A DNA stretch of 64,000 bases from contig NC_018017.1 in assembly GCF_000243155.2 (NCBI RefSeq), positions 3,286,001-3,350,000 of the forward strand. Reading direction: 5' to 3'. The translations under genes were made by a program, and so were the position numbers. The stretch's first letter is position 1. The number at the start of each line of letters is the position of its first letter. Below, piece by piece: positions 3,719-54,640 of the stretch. This stretch comes from Desulfitobacterium dehalogenans ATCC 51507 (lineage in GTDB: Bacteria > Bacillota > Desulfitobacteriia > Desulfitobacteriales > Desulfitobacteriaceae). The notes under the pieces were generated by a model. That model saw only the letters and a program-made list of their open reading frames with translations, searched no databases and was not told the DNA's origin.

Positions 3719-4075
3719 CTATTCCAAGACACGGACACCTTGGACATTGACATTGACTTGCGCTACCTTTAGGCCGGTTAGATTTTCAGTGGTATAGCGA
3801 ACCCTTTCTATAACATTGGCAGCCACCTCAGAAATCTTAACTCCATAACCTACAATAATATACAAATCAATGACGACCTGATTATCATCGATGGATACGA
3901 CAACTCCACGGGCTAAATTTTCGCGGCCCAGGAGCTCGGAGAACTTATCCGAAGATTTTCGGGAAGCCATCCCCACAAGACCATAACATTCGACTGCAGC
4001 AGCGCCGGCTATCGTCGCAATAACCTCTTCAGAGATATCGATTTTCCCCAAATTATTATTAATCTCTTTACCCAT
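3719..4075 (-). CDS. Asp23/Gls24 family envelope stress protein
   Basis: 118 residues when begun at the ATG at 4075, which has a strong AAAGGGAGGTCC ribosome binding site. An upstream in-frame ATG at 4147 lacks one and would add an unlikely 24-residue tail. The Asp23 domain covers nearly the whole protein (ISEEVIATIAGAAAVECYG, then VVIDLYIIVGYG and VNVNVQGVRV). It is equivalent to YloU of Bacillus, next to fakA. Such proteins are abundant, stress- or alkali-responsive and often membrane-associated through partners. Their exact biochemical role is unsettled. Confidence 0.92.
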   Translation of the reverse strand: MGKEINNNLGKIDISEEVIATIAGAAAVECYGLVGMASRKSSDKFSELLGRENLARGVVVSIDDNQVVIDLYIIVGYGVKISEVAANVIERVRYTTENLTGLKVAQVNVNVQGVRVLE

Positions 4076-4354
4076 ATACAAGGACCTCCCTTTATCGGCA
4101 TGTGTCCATATCGTCACTATTTTACCAAGTATTAATGAAATGTTCAAAGAAAATTATGCTAATACGCAATTAATATTATATCTACGGTTTTATTATATTC
4201 AACTTGTACAGTTTTTGGATATATTTCAGGGAAATAAAGCCGGTAAAAAAGATTTAACTATCTTTCAACGAAAAGGTTCGGAAAAACCTTGCCAATCCAG
4301 TAAACATTTGATAGAATACATAGGTATCATTTCCGGTGTAAAGGAGGTAAGAGC

Positions 4355-4684: not shown

Positions 4685-4982
4685 CCAGGATTTTGCTTTA
4701 CACCGGTCGCTCCATAAGCTGCGCGGACAAAACTAACGCTCAAGCCCTCCGCTGCGTCGGGTGCACCTGCGCCGCTAAGTAATCTCCGTGGCGTGGCGGC
4801 TTGGGCGAAACCCTCACCCGGGTTTCGTGGCTAAATCGGCTCCTCGAAAGCACTGCTTTCGCACTTGTTCTCATAGCCGGTTGGAAACGTCCTGTTTCCA
4901 ACCTTTCTCCGCTGCATGCTTTTCGCGAAGTTTTGTTTCTGCTCGCTTAAATCCGCTCTCTTCTGTAAAGCAAAATCCTTGG
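4685..4982. repeat. Composite palindromic repeat, module 1, copy A
   Basis: A 298-bp segment bounded by inverted repeats: AGGATTTTGCTTTAC at 4687-4701 and its exact reverse complement at 4965-4979. Inside are further inverted segments and a perfect central hairpin, GGTTGGAAAC / GTTTCCAACC with loop GTCCT (about 4879-4903). The same module recurs at 18611-18822 with the same bounds, core hairpin and flanking arms, but copy A carries about 90 more bases in the middle. There is no convincing ribosome binding site or protein, so it is non-coding. Its function is unknown. Confidence 0.85.
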
Positions 4983-5189
4983 GCTGCTTTTCGGGTTTTT
5001 ACGTTCGTGCATGCGGGGCTTTGTAGGGTAAGTTACGCGACGAGCAGCTTTTTCCGTCTTTACCGACGCCGCTTGAGCGGCATGGTCGGCTATTCGCCCG
5101 GGAAGGCCTCCAAAGAGTGACCCAAAGAACCTTAAGTGTAGCTTACATCAAGCCCAAAACAGGGCTGAAAAGAGCCAAAAGACCCTCAA

Positions 5190-5371
5190 GTGTAGCTTTA
5201 CGCACAAAAGCGAACGAATTTAGCGGAGGGGCGTCCGGGTGAACAAGGCTTTCTTAACATAGGCGAGCCACCGGTTTACATGCAGAAAGCAGCGGGGTTT
5301 GGCTCGACTGTTAAGAAAGCGAGTGAACCAGCCCCGGAGCTATGGAGTGAGTGTTGTGCGTAAAGCTACAC
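5190..5371. repeat. Composite palindromic repeat, module 2, copy A (MITE-like)
   Basis: A 182-bp imperfect palindrome with an 18-bp perfect terminal inverted repeat: GTGTAGCTTTACGCACAA at 5190-5207 and its complement at 5354-5371. Inner arms also pair: GGCTTTCTTAAC with GTTAAGAAAGC, and CGAGCCA with TGGCTCG. The sequence could fold into one long cruciform or RNA hairpin. A near-identical module is at 18940-19122. GACCC occurs just outside both ends. A partial left-arm copy (AAGTGTAGCTTAC) lies near 5134. It fills the space between rpmB and hslO, and no gene is visible in it. Confidence 0.88.
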
Positions 5372-5419
5372 GACCCCAGCGGCTTCTTCACTTCACCGAT
5401 GACGCCATCGCATGAAGCT

Positions 5420-6304
5420 CTACTTCACCTGCTCATAAAGCTCACGCAGATCCTCTTCGTTGAAACGGTAATGCTCATTGCAGAAATGGCACACGAGCTC
5501 AGCCTGTTTGTCCTCGAGAAGTTCTTCAAAGCCTTCTTTCCCGATACTGATCAATGTCTCGCTTACCCGTTCTTTGGAGCAGGTGCATTTGTATTGCACC
5601 GGCCTTTTTTCCAGAACACGATAGTCCAGATCTCCTATGAGCTCCCGGACTAATTCTTCCATAGTGGTACTGTCTGCAGCAATTTGACTGATACCTTGAA
5701 TCCGAGCCAGCAGTGCTTCCAGAGCTTGGACACTCTCTTCAGAGGCATTCGGTAATAATTGGAACAGCATTCCGGCAGCTCCAGCCACATGGGAATCCTT
5801 CCCTACCATCACGCCCAGAAGGGCGGCGGATCGTACCTGCTCAGAATTAAGCAGATAATGAACCAAATCATCGGCAATTTCTCCACTGACCAAGGGAACC
5901 ATCCCTGTATAGCTTTCCCCATTGGCCAGGCTGCGGCTTACCACAAATTCTCCGGCACCTACGGCACCGGATACATCCAGTTTCCCTTTAGAGTTTAAAG
6001 GGAGCTCCACCTGAGGTTCCTGAACATAGCCTCGAACCTCTCCTTGAGGGTTGCCTACGGCAACCACCCCTCCCAAAGGGCCATCCCCAAGAAGCCGTAA
6101 GGTAATGGCCTCCTCTGCTTTCATCGAGCTGGCCAGGAGCAAGGATGCTCCCATAAGCCGTCCTAATGCCGCGGTGGCTACAGGTGTTGTGTGATGGCGG
6201 TTAGCCGCCTCTTCCACAGTGTTGGTCATCCCTACGGCAACCCAGCGAACCTCTCCATTTCCCAGGGTGCCCAGCCATAATTCATCTGAATATTTGTTGT
6301 TCAT
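5420..6304 (-). CDS. hslO: Hsp33 redox-regulated molecular chaperone
   Basis: 294 residues when begun at the ATG at 6304, which has GAGGTT about 10 bases upstream. An in-frame ATG at 6322 lacks a ribosome binding site. The N-terminal domain carries the family segment HHTTPVATAALGR. The C-terminal redox switch has all four zinc cysteines, CTC near residue 241 and CHFC near 273. Under oxidative stress the cysteines disulfide-bond and the holdase is activated in the cytoplasm. The gene lies about 100 bases after thiN, and its 3' side is the palindromic repeat copy A. Confidence 0.95.
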   Translation of the reverse strand: MNNKYSDELWLGTLGNGEVRWVAVGMTNTVEEAANRHHTTPVATAALGRLMGASLLLASSMKAEEAITLRLLGDGPLGGVVAVGNPQGEVRGYVQEPQVELPLNSKGKLDVSGAVGAGEFVVSRSLANGESYTGMVPLVSGEIADDLVHYLLNSEQVRSAALLGVMVGKDSHVAGAAGMLFQLLPNASEESVQALEALLARIQGISQIAADSTTMEELVRELIGDLDYRVLEKRPVQYKCTCSKERVSETLISIGKEGFEELLEDKQAELVCHFCNEHYRFNEEDLRELYEQVK

Positions 6305-6401
6305 CTTTTCTATCAACCTCATTCAACACAATTGCTTTATTCGTAAACACAAGTTCTTTGTCCATTGATCACTATGGATGGACCGAATTAAAACCCACGA
6401 A

Positions 6402-8700: not shown

Positions 8701-10440
8701 CTATGGATTAAATTTATCCAGCTTGGCTACATGACCCAAAACGACTGGATTAAAGGCTATCGGCCCCGGGCCCCGGGAGATGATGATCTTGACGGTATCC
8801 CCTTTATTAACCAGTTCACCCGGTCTCGGAACAGTATCCATCACCACATCCGGGGGGTATTCGGTAGAATTCACACTATCTCCCAATACCACGACCAATT
8901 CATATTGCTTTAAAATCGCTTGAGCGTGATCCGATGATTGTCCAATAACGCTGGGCAAAGGCGTCGGTTTGTCCACTTTTCCAGCGCTGACGGTTAAGCT
9001 GACTAAACCATTTTTAAACCATTCTACACCGGGAGCAGGATCCTGCCCCACCACAATATCTTTCGGCTGGGAAGAGTTTTGATCCTCCTGGACAGAGATG
9101 TTTTCTTTTTTGAAACCCATACTTTCTAAAGTATTAAGGGCCGCTTCCCGAGTGGTGTTTCCGGTTTTAAAATTGGGGAATATCACCGGCTTAGAGCCTA
9201 AGCTCACCCAGACCTTGATGCCCCGTTCTTTTTTTACAACGGCACCCTCTTCAGGGTCAGTGCGCGTAATCTTCCCCTTCTCCACTTCATCATTGTATTC
9301 TTCCTGAGTGTTCGGGTCTAAGTATAAACCGTTTCGTTCAGCAAAATAAGCTGCATCCTGAATTGTTTTTCCCACCAACGGAGGAACTGTGGTGGTCCCT
9401 ACATTAAACCATTGCGAGAAAACAGCCCAGCCTCCCCCCATGATCAGGACAAAGGCAAGCAAAGCTACCCATGGCCAGCGTTTACGAAATAGTGGGACCT
9501 TGGTTTTTTTCCGGCCTGCTTCTTTTTCCTCGGAAGCTAAAGCGGAGTTCACCCCCGCGCTTAAGGAGCGATGAACCCGGGTGCTTTCCAAGTCCTGGTC
9601 CTCATCGACTGTCTTGTCCACAGGCAAGCCGGCCTGAACTTTGCGAAGATCCTGCAATAAATCTTTGGCCGTGGCATAACGCTGATCCGGAGATTTGGCA
9701 ATGGCTCTCATCACCAGATTCTCTAGAGCAGGGCTGACCCTGGCGTTCAGCTTGCTGGGAGGGACGGCTAATTCCTGCAAATGCTTGAGGGCAATGGAAA
9801 TCGGGGTCTCCCCATCATAAGGCACCTTGCCCGTCAAAAGTTCATAGAGAATAATCCCTAGGGAATAAACATCGGATTGCTCATTGGTCTGAACTCCCCT
9901 GGCCTGTTCCGGTGAAAGATAATGGACCGAACCTACAATATCTCCAGTATGGGTCATGGTTGCCGCTGAAACAGCCCGGGCAATTCCAAAATCCGTGACC
10001 TTAATCCGTCCATCCTCTGTAACAAGAATATTATGAGGTTTAATATCCCGATGAATGATATGATGCTCATGGGCATGACGAATGGCTTCAGCAATCTGCA
10101 TGCCCAGATCCAAAGTCTGTTCTGTGGATAAGGGCGCATAATTGCGAATAATATCCTTCAGGTTCTGCCCTTCAATATACTCCATGACGATGTATTCCGT
10201 CTCTCCATCCTTGCCTACATCATAGATGGATACGATATTGGTATGGGACAAACTGGCTGCCGACTGTGCCTCTCTCCGAAAACGGCGAACGAATTCCTCA
10301 TCTGCCGTAAATTGCTCACGGAGAATTTTAATGGTGACGATCCTGTTCAATAAAAGATCCTTAGCTTTGTAGACAATGGCCATGCCACCGGATCCTATTT
10401 TTTCGATTATTTCATAGCGATTACTCAAAATTTTGCTCAC
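8701..10440 (-). CDS. prkC: Ser/Thr protein kinase with PASTA domains (PrkC/PknB type)
   Basis: 579 residues. The cytoplasmic kinase domain occupies about 10-270 with GSGGMAIVYKAK (Gly loop), HRDIKPHNILV (catalytic loop), DFGIARA and the activation-loop threonines. A juxtamembrane stretch, one membrane helix near 325-345 (WPWVALLAFVLIMGGGWAVF) and three extracellular PASTA repeats follow (about 352-418, 419-487 and 488-558). PASTA kinases sense muropeptides or lipid II and adjust cell wall synthesis, growth and germination. The start is a GTG overlapping the PBP stop (GTGA), with AGGTGAT upstream. The cognate phosphatase is three genes upstream. Confidence 0.95.
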   Translation of the reverse strand: MSKILSNRYEIIEKIGSGGMAIVYKAKDLLLNRIVTIKILREQFTADEEFVRRFRREAQSAASLSHTNIVSIYDVGKDGETEYIVMEYIEGQNLKDIIRNYAPLSTEQTLDLGMQIAEAIRHAHEHHIIHRDIKPHNILVTEDGRIKVTDFGIARAVSAATMTHTGDIVGSVHYLSPEQARGVQTNEQSDVYSLGIILYELLTGKVPYDGETPISIALKHLQELAVPPSKLNARVSPALENLVMRAIAKSPDQRYATAKDLLQDLRKVQAGLPVDKTVDEDQDLESTRVHRSLSAGVNSALASEEKEAGRKKTKVPLFRKRWPWVALLAFVLIMGGGWAVFSQWFNVGTTTVPPLVGKTIQDAAYFAERNGLYLDPNTQEEYNDEVEKGKITRTDPEEGAVVKKERGIKVWVSLGSKPVIFPNFKTGNTTREAALNTLESMGFKKENISVQEDQNSSQPKDIVVGQDPAPGVEWFKNGLVSLTVSAGKVDKPTPLPSVIGQSSDHAQAILKQYELVVVLGDSVNSTEYPPDVVMDTVPRPGELVNKGDTVKIIISRGPGPIAFNPVVLGHVAKLDKFNP

Positions 10441-17611: not shown

Positions 17612-18544
17612 TCACGAGAAACCCTCTCCCACCTGTCCATGACGACCTAAGAAAAAATCCCGGGCCGGCATGGGCTTCTTCCCTGCAGGCTGCACCTCAG
17701 TAATCCGGATCAACCCTTCCCCGGTCTGAACGAGCAGGCCCTGAGAGTTACATTCTATAATTTCACCCAGTTTAAAATCATATCCTTTTTCTTCTGCAGA
17801 GACGGTTGACTTCCATACTTTGACCGTTTCTCCTCTAAAGGTAGTATAGGAACCGGGCCAAGGATTCAGTCCGCGAATTTGATTATGAATAGCTTGAGCA
17901 CCGCGCGCCCAGTTGATCTTCTCGTGCTCCCGGGTGAGCAGGGAGGCATAACGTACGGGCCCCTTTTGAGGTGTTCTGGGCAATTCTCCCTTTTGGAGCT
18001 GCTCCAAAGTAGTGATTAAAAGCTGAGCGCCGGCTTGAGCCAGAGCGTCATGAAGTTCCCCGGTGGTGGTATCCTCTCCAATCGGATGCTCGGCCTTTAG
18101 GAGCATATCCCCCGTGTCCAGCCCTTCATCCATCTGCATAGTCGTAACGCCGGTCTTTTGATCTCCCTCAAGGACAGACCAATGAATGGGTGCGGCACCG
18201 CGCCAATCCGGCAAAAGGGAGGCATGGACATTGATGCAGCCGTAAAGGGGCAATTCTAAAATTTCTTTGGATAATATTTGTCCATAGGCCACCACGATGA
18301 TGACCTCCGGGGCCAGTTCCTTCAAGGATTCCAGGCCCTCGGGGCTTTTTACTTTGTGAGGCTGATAAACAGCAAGCCCCAGGCTTTGGGCGGCTACTTT
18401 AACCGGGCTGGGCTTCAGGTTCTTTCCCCGGCCGGAAGGACGATCCGGCTGGGTAAAAACTCCCACCACGTCGTGACCGTGAGCCGCCAGGGCTTGGAGG
18501 GTTGGAACGGCGAAGTCCGGCGTTCCCATGAAAACGAGTCGCAT
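17612..18544 (-). CDS. fmt: Methionyl-tRNA formyltransferase
   Basis: 310 residues. The N-terminal formyltransferase domain has MGTPDFAVPTLQAL, the formate-binding INVHASLLPDWRGAAPI near 112 and a catalytic Asp in DEGLDTGDML. The C-terminal domain binds tRNA. It formylates initiator Met-tRNA. In most Firmicutes it is directly next to def. Here 646 bases holding palindromic repeat copy B separate them. Confidence 0.96.
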   Translation of the reverse strand: MRLVFMGTPDFAVPTLQALAAHGHDVVGVFTQPDRPSGRGKNLKPSPVKVAAQSLGLAVYQPHKVKSPEGLESLKELAPEVIIVVAYGQILSKEILELPLYGCINVHASLLPDWRGAAPIHWSVLEGDQKTGVTTMQMDEGLDTGDMLLKAEHPIGEDTTTGELHDALAQAGAQLLITTLEQLQKGELPRTPQKGPVRYASLLTREHEKINWARGAQAIHNQIRGLNPWPGSYTTFRGETVKVWKSTVSAEEKGYDFKLGEIIECNSQGLLVQTGEGLIRITEVQPAGKKPMPARDFFLGRHGQVGEGFS

Positions 18545-18610: not shown

Positions 18611-18822
18611 CCAGGATTTTGCTTTACACCGTTCGCTGAATAAGCTGCGCGGACAAAACTAACGCTCAAGCTCTCCGCTCCGTCGCGTCCCCGCCCAAAT
18701 CGCTCCTGCTCAATGGGCGGTTGGAAACGTCCTGTTTCCAACTCGACTCCGCTGCGTGCTTTTCGCGAAGTTTTGTTTCCGCTCGCTTAAATTCGCTCAC
18801 TCTTGTAAGACAAAATCCTTGG
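18611..18822. repeat. Composite palindromic repeat, module 1, copy B
   Basis: A 212-bp segment bounded by AGGATTTTGCTTTAC (18613-18627) and GTAAGACAAAATCCT (18805-18819, one mismatch to the complement). The perfect inner hairpin TTGGAAAC-GTCCT-GTTTCCAA is at 18721-18741. It shares its arms and core with 4685-4982 but lacks about 90 middle bases present there. Short open frames through it have no ribosome binding site and are not conserved between the copies. Confidence 0.85.
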
Positions 18823-18939
18823 GTGGTCTTTCAAGCATCTCTTTTGGCATCTTTTCAGGATGTTTTCAGGAAGTTTTTCGAAGGCTATTTTAATAAAGGC
18901 CTGAAAAAAGACTAAAATAGTAACCCCAATGACCCGCAA

Positions 18940-19122
18940 GTGTAGCTTTACGCACAAGAGCGAACGGTTTTAGCGGAGGGGCGGTCAGGTTAACGAGGCT
19001 TTCTTAACTTAGTCGAGCCACCGGTTCACATCAGGTATTACCCAGAGGTTTGGCTCGGCTGTTAAGAAAGTGAGTTGACCAGCCCAGGAGCTATTGAGTA
19101 AGCGATGTGCGTAAAGCTACAC
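18940..19122. repeat. Composite palindromic repeat, module 2, copy B (MITE-like)
   Basis: A 183-bp imperfect palindrome with a 17-bp perfect terminal inverted repeat, GTGTAGCTTTACGCACA at 18940-18956 and its complement at 19106-19122. It matches 5190-5371 along its whole length, with the same inner pairs (GGCTTTCTTAAC / GTTAAGAAAG and CGAGCCA / TGGCTCG). GACCC flanks both ends. The region 18823-18939 between modules is A/T-richer and not shared with copy A. The element lies inside the def-fmt operon, so it is probably transcribed with it. Confidence 0.88.
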
Positions 19123-19190
19123 GACCCGAGCAAGCTTTTCATTCACTATCAGCAGCGTGAAAGGCTCCTCCAGTATCCTCCAAGGAGTAT

Positions 19191-19643
19191 TTACCTGCGA
19201 TAGGTTTTCTTCGCTTTATCAACGAAGAGTACCCCTTCCAAATGGTCGATTTCATGCTGCAGGCAGCGGGCCAAGAGCCCTTCCCCTTCAATGACCTGGA
19301 GTTCTCCCTTGCGATTGAGAGCTTCTACTTTGACTTTGGCTGCCCGGGCTACCTGACCGGTTACACCGGGGATGCTTAAGCATCCTTCATCATCAAGGTC
19401 TTCTCCCTCTTTTTCGATGATGACAGGATTGATTAATTCCATGGGGCCTTCTCCTACATCGATGACGACGACACGTTTTGAGACTCCCACTTGGGGGGCT
19501 GCCAGGCCCACCCCATTGGCATCATAGAGTGTCTCCAACATATTATCTAAAAGCTTTTCAATATTGGGTGTTATCTCTTTTACAGGAACAGCTTTCTCCC
19601 GCAACACTTCAGAACCGATTTCTACAACCTGATAAATCGCCAT
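19191..19643 (-). CDS. def: Peptide deformylase
   Basis: 150 residues with all three deformylase motifs: [10 protein letters not shown] (45-54), EGCLSIPG (88-95) and HEIDHLEG (131-138), which supply the Cys and two His metal ligands and the catalytic Glu. It removes the formyl group from nascent proteins. It lies between priA and fmt, in line with the conserved order, though the repeat element separates it from fmt. Confidence 0.97.
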
Positions 19644-22712: not shown

Positions 22713-22743
22713 CTAAACAAGGTAAATATTCCGTGACCTTTAA

Positions 22744-22838
22744 ATTAGTCCCGTGAGGCTAAGAAGGAAATGGCGTACCATGAACTATGTGCATGGACAC
22801 CTCTTTCTTGCTTGCGGGCAAGGAAGAGGTTTTTTGTT
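22744..22838 (+). promoter_or_regulatory. PyrR-binding RNA and attenuator upstream of uraA
   Basis: The sequence AGTCCCGTGAGGCT (about 22747-22760) matches the conserved PyrR anti-antiterminator loop, closed by TTAG / CTAA arms. It is followed by a strong terminator: stem CCTCTTTCTTGC / GCAAGGAAGAGG (22800-22811 with 22818-22829) and a run of seven T. In Bacillus-type control PyrR bound to UMP stabilises the first hairpin and lets the terminator form. Uridine nucleotides would therefore switch off the permease. No pyrR gene is in this window. Confidence 0.9.
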
Positions 22839-46776: not shown

Positions 46777-46879
46777 CTCTCCTCTCCAAATAGTTTTTCT
46801 GCAAAAATAAAAAGTCCATAGCCACCTCGCTTTTCCTTTCAGACAAAGCAAAATGACCATGAACTTTACCAAACTTCAT

Positions 46880-47045
46880 GTGTTCCCGGCTCCAGGCAGG
46901 TCTCCTGACTTCGAGTCATTGTCTCATTGCTGCCTTCCCAGTTACCCAGTGGCATCCAACGCTGAGACTCCTCTTTACAGTGGCGGGTCCGTCCGGGAAT
47001 TGCACCCGGTTCCCTATTCTCCCTTCTTGGCGAAGGGCACCTGAA
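46880..47045 (-). promoter_or_regulatory. Cobalamin riboswitch
   Basis: Read on the minus strand it has the conserved parts in order: GGTGCCCTTCG at the 5' end, GGGAACCGGGTGCAATTCCC, GCCACTGTAA, GCCACTGGGTAACTGGGAAGG and the B12 box GTCAGGAGACCTGCC near 46895-46910. It lies about 100 bases before the cblS start. Adenosylcobalamin binding should reduce expression of cblS, cblT and the ECF genes. I do not see an unmistakable terminator between it and cblS, so translational control is possible. Confidence 0.95.
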
Positions 47046-47075
47046 ATCCTTAAATTGTTAAAACCTACTAAATTC

Positions 47076-53922: not shown

Positions 53923-54640
53923 CCACCCGCTCAGCGGGTGGTTTGCTCTAGCCCTATAAGGGCAGGGTACAGGCTGAGCCTTAAGGCTCACTGAAAGTTC
54001 CGCCAACCGCACTCTGCCCCGTGCTACCCCTAAAGGGGTTGGGGGGCTATTTTTTCTTCTTCTCTATAGCCTCCCCTGTAAATGGATCTACAAATTCCTT
54101 GATACTTAGTTGATCTGCTGCAATGTCCTCCTGCAACTGCTTTCGGATATACTGTTCTATCGCTTTCTTATTTCTCCCTACTATGTCAACGTAATAGCCT
54201 CTGCACCAGAAATGCCGGTTACCATACTTATACTTTAAATTGGCATGTCGATCGAAAATCATCAATGAGCTCTTCCCTTTCAGGTATCCCATAAATGCCG
54301 ATACACTTAATTTCGGAGGGATCGACACCAACATATGGATGTGATCCGCACAGGCATTGGCTTCGATGATTTCTACTTTCTTATAATCGCACAATGTTCT
54401 TATTATCTTTCCTATATCCTTTTTGATTTTTCCATAAATGATTTGTCTTCGATATTTTGGGGCAAATACGATATGATATTTACAGTTCTATCGAGTATGT
54501 GCTAAACTTTCTGTATCCATTGGGATATCTACCTCCTCTTTGTCTAGTGCGGTTGGCGAAACCTGCACTATTCTATCAAAGGGGGGTAGGTTTTTCTACT
54601 CATAGCTAAAGCTTCTTGGAACCACCTGCATAGCAGGTGG
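53923..54640 (-). mobile_element. IS200/IS605-type element
   Basis: Bounded by end hairpins CCACCCGC-TCA-GCGGGTGG (53923-53941) and CCACCTGC-ATA-GCAGGTGG (54622-54640), the subterminal structures expected for TnpA. CGCCAACCGCACT at 54001-54013 and its perfect complement at 54546-54558 also flank the transposase. No TnpB/IscB gene accompanies it, so it is IS200-like. The single transposase gene is interrupted. Confidence 0.8.
54047..54520 (-). pseudogene. tnpA: IS200/IS605 TnpA transposase with a nonsense mutation
   Basis: From the ATG at 54520 (AGAGGAGGT upstream) the frame reads MDTESLAHTR, then TAG at 54488-54490, then NCKYHIVFAPKYRRQ and on to the end. Tryptophan is expected at the stop, so this is a single TGG to TAG change. 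Downstream the HUH motif in ADHIHMLVSIPP and the catalytic Tyr in AIEQYIRKQ are intact. Re-initiation at 54394 would give 115 residues lacking the N-terminal strand. Probably inactive unless complemented. Confidence 0.85.

Follow-up and report, generated by a model that had tools for sequence, protein, structure and literature searches.

Unit B, a rod-like hairpin of about 180 nt, belongs to a dispersed intergenic repeat family that extends across a bacterial class and is restricted to it, and the paired fold of one of its strands is kept by selection, also in resident copies and irrespective of how the flanking genes are oriented. The selected single strand is most likely RNA. Taken as a whole, the results are best explained, at a probability of about 50%, by an element that forms a folded strand and spreads as a non-autonomous passenger of a trans-acting factor.

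The window, a stretch of 64,000 nucleotides from Desulfitobacterium dehalogenans ATCC 51507 (NC_018017.1, positions 3,286,001 to 3,350,000, forward strand), contains two copies of unit B (Table 1). A sequence-only reading had described them as a MITE-like palindrome present twice, and their positions and arms were confirmed. The terminal inverted repeats are perfect and span 18 bp in copy 1 (GTGTAGCTTTACGCACAA / TTGTGCGTAAAGCTACAC) and 17 bp in copy 2; both sets of inner arms, GGCTTTCTTAAC/GTTAAGAAAGC and CGAGCCA/TGGCTCG, exist and are paired in the predicted fold; the copies are similar over their whole length (85% identity), and no long open reading frame (ORF) lies over the palindrome. The predicted RNA folding energy of each copy was −87.6 kcal/mol (z = −8.1 and −7.3 against dinucleotide shuffles), and 0 of 200 shuffles folded as well. 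Copy 1 sits just beyond the 3′ end of hslO, on the opposite strand, and copy 2 lies between the fmt-like and def genes, antisense to both. The count of two applies within the window only. GACCC does flank both ends of both copies, but it is a linker that is near-constant in the copies and genera of the bacterial family, and was thus rejected as a target-site duplication. The palindrome is a real unit but not the whole one, as conserved sequence continues for approximately 200–500 bp upstream of it in 32 of 40 copies.

Table 1. Units of the repeat element and neighboring genes in the window
Feature	Position	Strand	Description
Unit B, copy 1	5190..5371	+	182-nt rod-like hairpin; R2 model 154 bits, E 2.6e-33
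Unit B, copy 2	18940..19122	+	183-nt hairpin with alternative apical loop CATCAGGTATTACCCAGAGG; R2 model 176.9 bits, E 1.8e-38
Unit A, copy 1	4685..4981	-	Branched hairpin, larger than B and carrying two additional hairpin inserts; orientation opposite to B
Unit A, copy 2	18611..18821	-	Without insert hairpins; weak minus-strand match to the B model at 18612-18820 (35 bits, E 1.5e-6)
Hairpin C	5062..5092	+	Short, imperfect REP-like palindrome ACCGACGCCGCTTGAGCGGCATGGTCGGCTA; lies between units A and B and recurs in other copies
Left GACCC linker of B, copy 1	5181..5185	+	Part of the repeat, near-constant in copies
Right GACCC linker of B, copy 1	5372..5376	+	Part of the repeat, near-constant in copies
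Left GACCC linker of B, copy 2	18931..18935	+	Near-constant part of the repeat
Right GACCC linker of B, copy 2	19123..19127	+	Near-constant part of the repeat
Hsp33 chaperone (hslO)	5420..6322	-	Neighbor gene of copy 1; PF01430, E 1e-90
Asp23 family protein	3719..4147	-	Neighbor of copy 1 on the other side; PF03780, E 4.5e-36
Formyltransferase (fmt-like)	17612..18544	-	Neighbor gene of copy 2; PF00551 and PF02911
Peptide deformylase (def)	19191..19643	-	Neighbor gene of copy 2; PF01327, E 2.8e-51

The whole element is oriented and 600–750 bp long, comprising unit A, hairpin C, and then unit B. Unit B is unbranched and has a conserved apical core, most often GGTTCACATCAGGTATTACCCnGAGGTTTGGC, with two alternative apical loops among its copies. 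Purine internal loops occur at regular places along the rod (e.g., GUGAAC facing GUGAAC) and would give tandem G-A pairs. Unit A (CCAGGATTTTGCTTT...AAAGCAAAATCCTTGG) was found upstream of B on the same element strand, at a gap of 30–235 bp, for about three quarters of the 40 scored A copies; in copy 1 of the window, its arms are CCAGGATTTTGCTTT at 4685-4699 and the complement at 4967-4981. Hairpin C (GCCGGTGCCGCYTGCGGCATGGCCGGCTAC) lies between A and B, and its other strand is a GTAG-tagged, REP-like palindrome. In the bacterial family of D. dehalogenans, the units often form divergent pairs around a small REP-like hairpin. An extra hairpin of approximately 60 nt was present on one or the other side of the rod in 8 of 40 B copies, and two different modules were distinguished (on the 3′ side in L024, L027, L036, and L038 and on the 5′ side in L033, L035, L037, and L040). 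Unit A also gains whole hairpins, its lengths ranging from 212 to 301, in a modular growth that leaves the rod intact.

For the 4.32-Mb chromosome of D. dehalogenans, a DNA search returned 40 scored copies, and the covariance model R1 found approximately 70 B copies (72 places when partial ones are included). These numbers ruled out a local duplication, the reading to which only two copies and no covariation would have pointed. All 40 inspected copies were intergenic and outside large reading frames in an ORF screen, and the few overlapping frames were weak or repeat-derived. R1 matched 40 of the 45 genomes of the bacterial family, representing all nine genera, often with tens of copies each. 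A second model built from 39 divergent copies (R2) matched 59 of 82 genomes of the class (19 of 27 genera); in a sample of 398 genomes of the phylum, it matched 12 class members and one outsider, the latter weakly (E 5e-8). A degenerate pattern of the core, searched in 84,980 named species, was found in Desulfosporosinus, Heliobacterium mobile and chlorum, Heliorestis, Paradesulfitobacterium, and two MAGs with other labels, while the exact core pattern gave no match across genome contigs.

Differences in occupancy were identified between related species, and the description of the palindrome as part of a non-autonomous mobile element was upheld to the extent that its copies are dispersed, intergenic, and variably present. 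Among the own copies compared with 800 kb of a sister species, many sites were shared and three were clean empty sites (inserts of 712, 684, and 604 bp). One insertion in Desulfosporosinus-like genomes was present in G035 and absent from G013 and G017. No target-site duplication was observed at the three empty sites of the sister species or at three g4 sites, where ragged ends could hide a very short one, and the insertion ends compared, being ragged, yielded no target-site rule. Copies at shared sites were 0.79–0.90 alike, compared with 0.85 (within) and 0.85 (between) for random copies; a similarity no higher than random is as expected if the species split came after most of the dispersal or if sequence is exchanged among copies.

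A small size, perfectly inverted ends, numerous intergenic copies, and empty sites in relatives are features of a classical MITE, in which a DDE transposase would read the 18-bp terminal inverted repeat. This reading is already contradicted by the variability of the arms. In heliobacterial and f3 genomes, the outer stem sequence differs among copies, including those of a single genome, but the rod, internal loops, and apical core are retained. Copies of one genome in other families have unrelated outer arms, with three different ones in G074 and two in G077, for example; the outer arms are constant only within the genus of D. dehalogenans. The inverted repeats are therefore not a fixed transposase site, as only their pairing is kept. 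Neither terminal inverted repeats shared by all copies nor a target-site duplication was found, and the repeat sequence runs past the inverted repeat. A MITE-like mechanism is thus very improbable.

Selection on the fold was evaluated using A3, a MAFFT alignment of the 39 divergent copies made without structure, in which 47 base pairs were scored. Paired cells amounted to 96.3%, compared with 81.9 ± 0.5 in shuffles, and compensatory double changes were found in 38 of the 47 pairs, compared with 21.0 in shuffles. The covariation score was 0.446 (0.175 when shuffled and 0.06–0.08 in slid-partner controls), and all 11 pairs of the inner stem co-varied. By parsimony on FastTree trees of these short sequences, 78 double changes from one Watson–Crick (WC) pair to another, 44 changes from WC to GU, and 7 from WC to AC were counted. 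The equivalent transitions in unpaired columns numbered 85:86, which indicates that there is no mutational strand bias. As the structures were partly derived from the alignments tested, a control was added using only those pairs predicted on both strands, and GU:AC was 33:6. The terminal branches within the own genus gave 58:10 (63:17 when both strands' pairs are used). Seven sites, judged by the flanks only to be shared, are occupied in both sister species, and the changes there occurred in place; they numbered 21 GU, 3 AC, and 7 other.

The GU:AC ratio was 18:7 in copies antisense to both neighbors and 16:7 in sense copies. A strand-specific bias that includes antisense copies identifies the kept fold as that of the strand reading B from 5′ to 3′ in the A-to-B direction, and the likeness of sense and antisense copies means that the selection does not arise from being part of the mRNA of a neighbor. 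An mRNA leader or terminator was rejected for this reason and because the copies showed no orientation preference. The G-U excess, the neutral control, and the persistence of the bias in place and in antisense copies together indicate that the selected form is one single strand. A cruciform, also proposed from the palindrome, is disfavored by this strand-specific constraint.

The matching of the arms could also be attributed to DNA processes, such as quasi-palindrome template switching or cruciform repair, rather than to selection. The many double changes (78 from WC to WC) are what templated arm correction would give, and hairpin modules are indeed swapped or inserted between copies. However, the copying of one arm from the other should not prefer G-U over A-C, in contrast to the observed 44:7 beside the neutral ratio, and the mismatched internal loops occupy constant positions and have similar sequences. 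Quasi-palindrome repair could therefore be a source of extra double changes but not of the G-U excess, and we consider it improbable as an explanation of the fold.

Of the possibilities raised from the palindrome, a large folded RNA was the best supported, given the compensatory changes and the strand-specific tolerance of G-U. As judged from the evolutionary evidence, the selected strand is probably RNA rather than single-stranded DNA, although G-T wobble is also tolerated in single-stranded DNA, which counts against the RNA reading. Promoter scans of the two window copies gave no signal above chance.

A gene that might mobilize the element was searched for in the genomes and around the loci. 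The REP-like hairpin C, whose other strand is GTAG followed by an imperfect palindrome, and the capacity of the units to form REPIN-like inverted doublets would suit a giant element of the REPIN/BIME type that a RAYT (Y1) transposase mobilizes via hairpin C. Y1/RAYT transposases were, however, absent from the complete genomes G006 and G017, which have 21 and 38 matches to the B model, and the own genome has only two IS200-like copies, broken or interrupted. One of these lies in the window (54137-54490, minus strand), carries one in-frame TAG, and is flanked by small hairpins; the only other Y1 match of this genome, near 3415479-3415831, is split. No B unit was found within the 1.5-kb flanks of seven Y1 loci tested, and the heliobacterial and f3 copies inspected showed no adjacent hairpin C. 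Single RAYT-like Y1 genes of approximately 260–280 aa occur in G001 (L172, 964-1979) and G013 (L171, 2630-2679), where the surroundings contain GGGAC-type palindromes (GGGACAAGGGGACAG / GGGGACGGTCC) instead, forming a separate candidate RAYT-repeat pair. Movement by a RAYT is very improbable. A resident reverse transcriptase was rejected as the common mobilizer because none was present in G077, which has 22 matches. ORF clustering around 115 loci retrieved only repeat-derived frames, general paralogues, and orthologous sites, and no RAYT, reverse transcriptase, or linked gene consistently accompanied the element among the genomes and loci examined.

The relationship of unit A to unit B was assessed separately. 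Sequence comparison is suggestive of, but does not prove, unit A being an inverted and diverged relative of B. The case for homology rests on Desulfosporosinus-like genomes, in which some elements have an opposite-orientation left unit that plainly matches B at 55–87 bits, the two units being arranged divergently (L140, L145, L166, L182, and L192), whereas the Desulfitobacterium unit A at the corresponding place is too diverged for proof. R2 matched unit A on the minus strand in window copy 2 (Table 1), a score to be read beside the 22–48 bits that B itself reaches on the wrong strand, and it gave no match in copy 1 or in a sample of ten A loci. In plain alignment, the end segments of A aligned with inverted B (z of approximately 3 each; 1.3 over the whole length), and A read forward had no similarity to B (z = −0.2). 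Unit A folds better in the inverted orientation (−63.7 vs. −51.3), in which it also has a G-U excess of 44:20 overall and 16:9 on the pairs common to both strands (p = 0.23); its strand preference is weaker than that of B.

In the explanation that we favor, each unit would give rise, in its own direction, to a folded strand, RNA or less likely single-stranded DNA, whose shape and core loops would be recognized by a trans-acting factor not encoded beside the copies. Carried by that factor as a non-autonomous passenger, the element would insert between genes and need no fixed recognition sequence at its ends. Continued production and binding of this folded strand would keep resident copies under selection. 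The passenger is favored over a host RNA because copy numbers (0 to over 30 in related genomes) and positions (between species) turn over. Also against a host RNA, no recurring neighbor gene family, orientation preference, or conserved promoter was seen. In-place selection on resident copies nevertheless keeps alive the reading of a host-functional RNA family, in which each unit would be a small RNA gene (a platform, decoy, or regulator) duplicated only incidentally, and fits it at least as well as a mobile passenger. The class-wide conservation of the core loops also agrees with a host function, as does a sense-oriented copy separating leuD from leuB, which three genomes of g24, a heliobacteria-like genus, have retained (L204, L208, and L212) and in which compensatory stem changes occurred in situ. 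We regard a host-functional family as possible rather than probable.

Rfam contained no family matching unit B, HEARO and the group II intron included, and none at the gathering threshold over it, and a permissive search (E up to 5) returned only weak and implausible matches below the gathering scores, with no HEARO among them. HEARO, the IsrB-associated RNA, is a multi-copy structured RNA-like element in intergenic DNA. Both HEARO and unit B are multi-copy and intergenic, but unit B is an unbranched rod with neither a HEARO match in Rfam nor a recurring gene. No description of this repeat was found in literature searches.

Among known repeat systems, the element belongs in kind with ERIC, BOX, and REPIN-like intergenic repeats, and it corresponds to the descriptive class of ERIC/BOX-like repeats in being a multi-copy, intergenic stem-loop with no ORF of its own. 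The BOX element of Streptococcus pneumoniae is modular and intergenic, occurs in many copies with extensive predicted RNA structure, and is regarded as a non-autonomous element that spread in a burst (PMC3049150). Modularity, intergenic location, multiple copies, and predicted RNA structure are common to BOX and the B family; BOX is described for streptococci and defined by its sequence modules, whereas the B family is class-wide, keeps its structure while the stems change completely, and is under strand-specific selection. ERIC/NEMIS is a long single stem-loop of 100–180 nt, found between genes in tens to hundreds of copies, and ERIC transcripts of Yersinia were reported to act as RNA hairpins (PMC2267715). 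It resembles the B family as a long intergenic multi-copy stem-loop, but it is recognized by conserved sequence and end repeats in a few genera, whereas in the B family the core loops are conserved across bacterial families, the terminal arms are not, and divergent pairs are possible. The separation from ERIC and BOX is based on their descriptions. REPINs/BIMEs, which are associated with RAYT, are inverted doublets of palindromes, with REPs of 20–40 bp (PMC3116915, PMC3733652). The element shares with them the inverted doublets and a GTAG-tagged small palindrome; only hairpin C, and not unit B, is a GTAG/CGTC-tagged palindrome of 20–40 bp. Unit B is approximately 180 nt long, several copy-rich genomes lack a RAYT, and no RAYT gene flanked by the repeat, as in REPIN/BIME systems, was found at the seven Y1 loci tested. 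Class-wide depth, the keeping of shape and loops rather than terminal sequence, and divergent pairing set the element apart from ERIC, BOX, and REPIN-like repeats. Its compensatory changes and strand-specific G-U tolerance are as in a structured RNA.

Bacterial intergenic hairpin repeats are mostly treated as decaying mobile DNA. The B family may be a bacterial SINE-like, class-old non-coding RNA rod, transcribed from the copies themselves and spread by its shape via a machine acting in trans, or else a multi-copy RNA family of the same age that serves the host; we consider this broader proposal doubtful. If true, either reading would describe a kind of dispersed functional RNA of which no bacterial description is known to us. 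The family offers a test that is usually lacking, with hundreds of copies across the class, empty and filled sites, and strong covariation with a strand signal. As selection sees one folded strand in place, what keeps intergenic repeats becomes directly testable. It also adds a new candidate structured RNA in heliobacteria, Desulfosporosinus, and dehalogenating Desulfitobacterium, and the g24 leuD-leuB unit is a good single-copy target for knock-out.

Several minor observations were made at individual loci. The hslO and carB neighborhoods recur across genera with the copy at different places, and they were not counted as deep positional conservation. B units lie beside the Hsp33 gene in two genera (L151 and L001) on opposite sides, which indicates repeated insertion and not a retained copy. 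Two tandem B doublets, each with a spacing of approximately 340–350 bp, lie within 8 kb at L159 of G007 (1501-2033 and 8799-9320). In the window, a cobalamin riboswitch (46878-47059, minus strand) and a PyrR-binding leader (22733-22837, plus strand) exceeded the Rfam gathering score.
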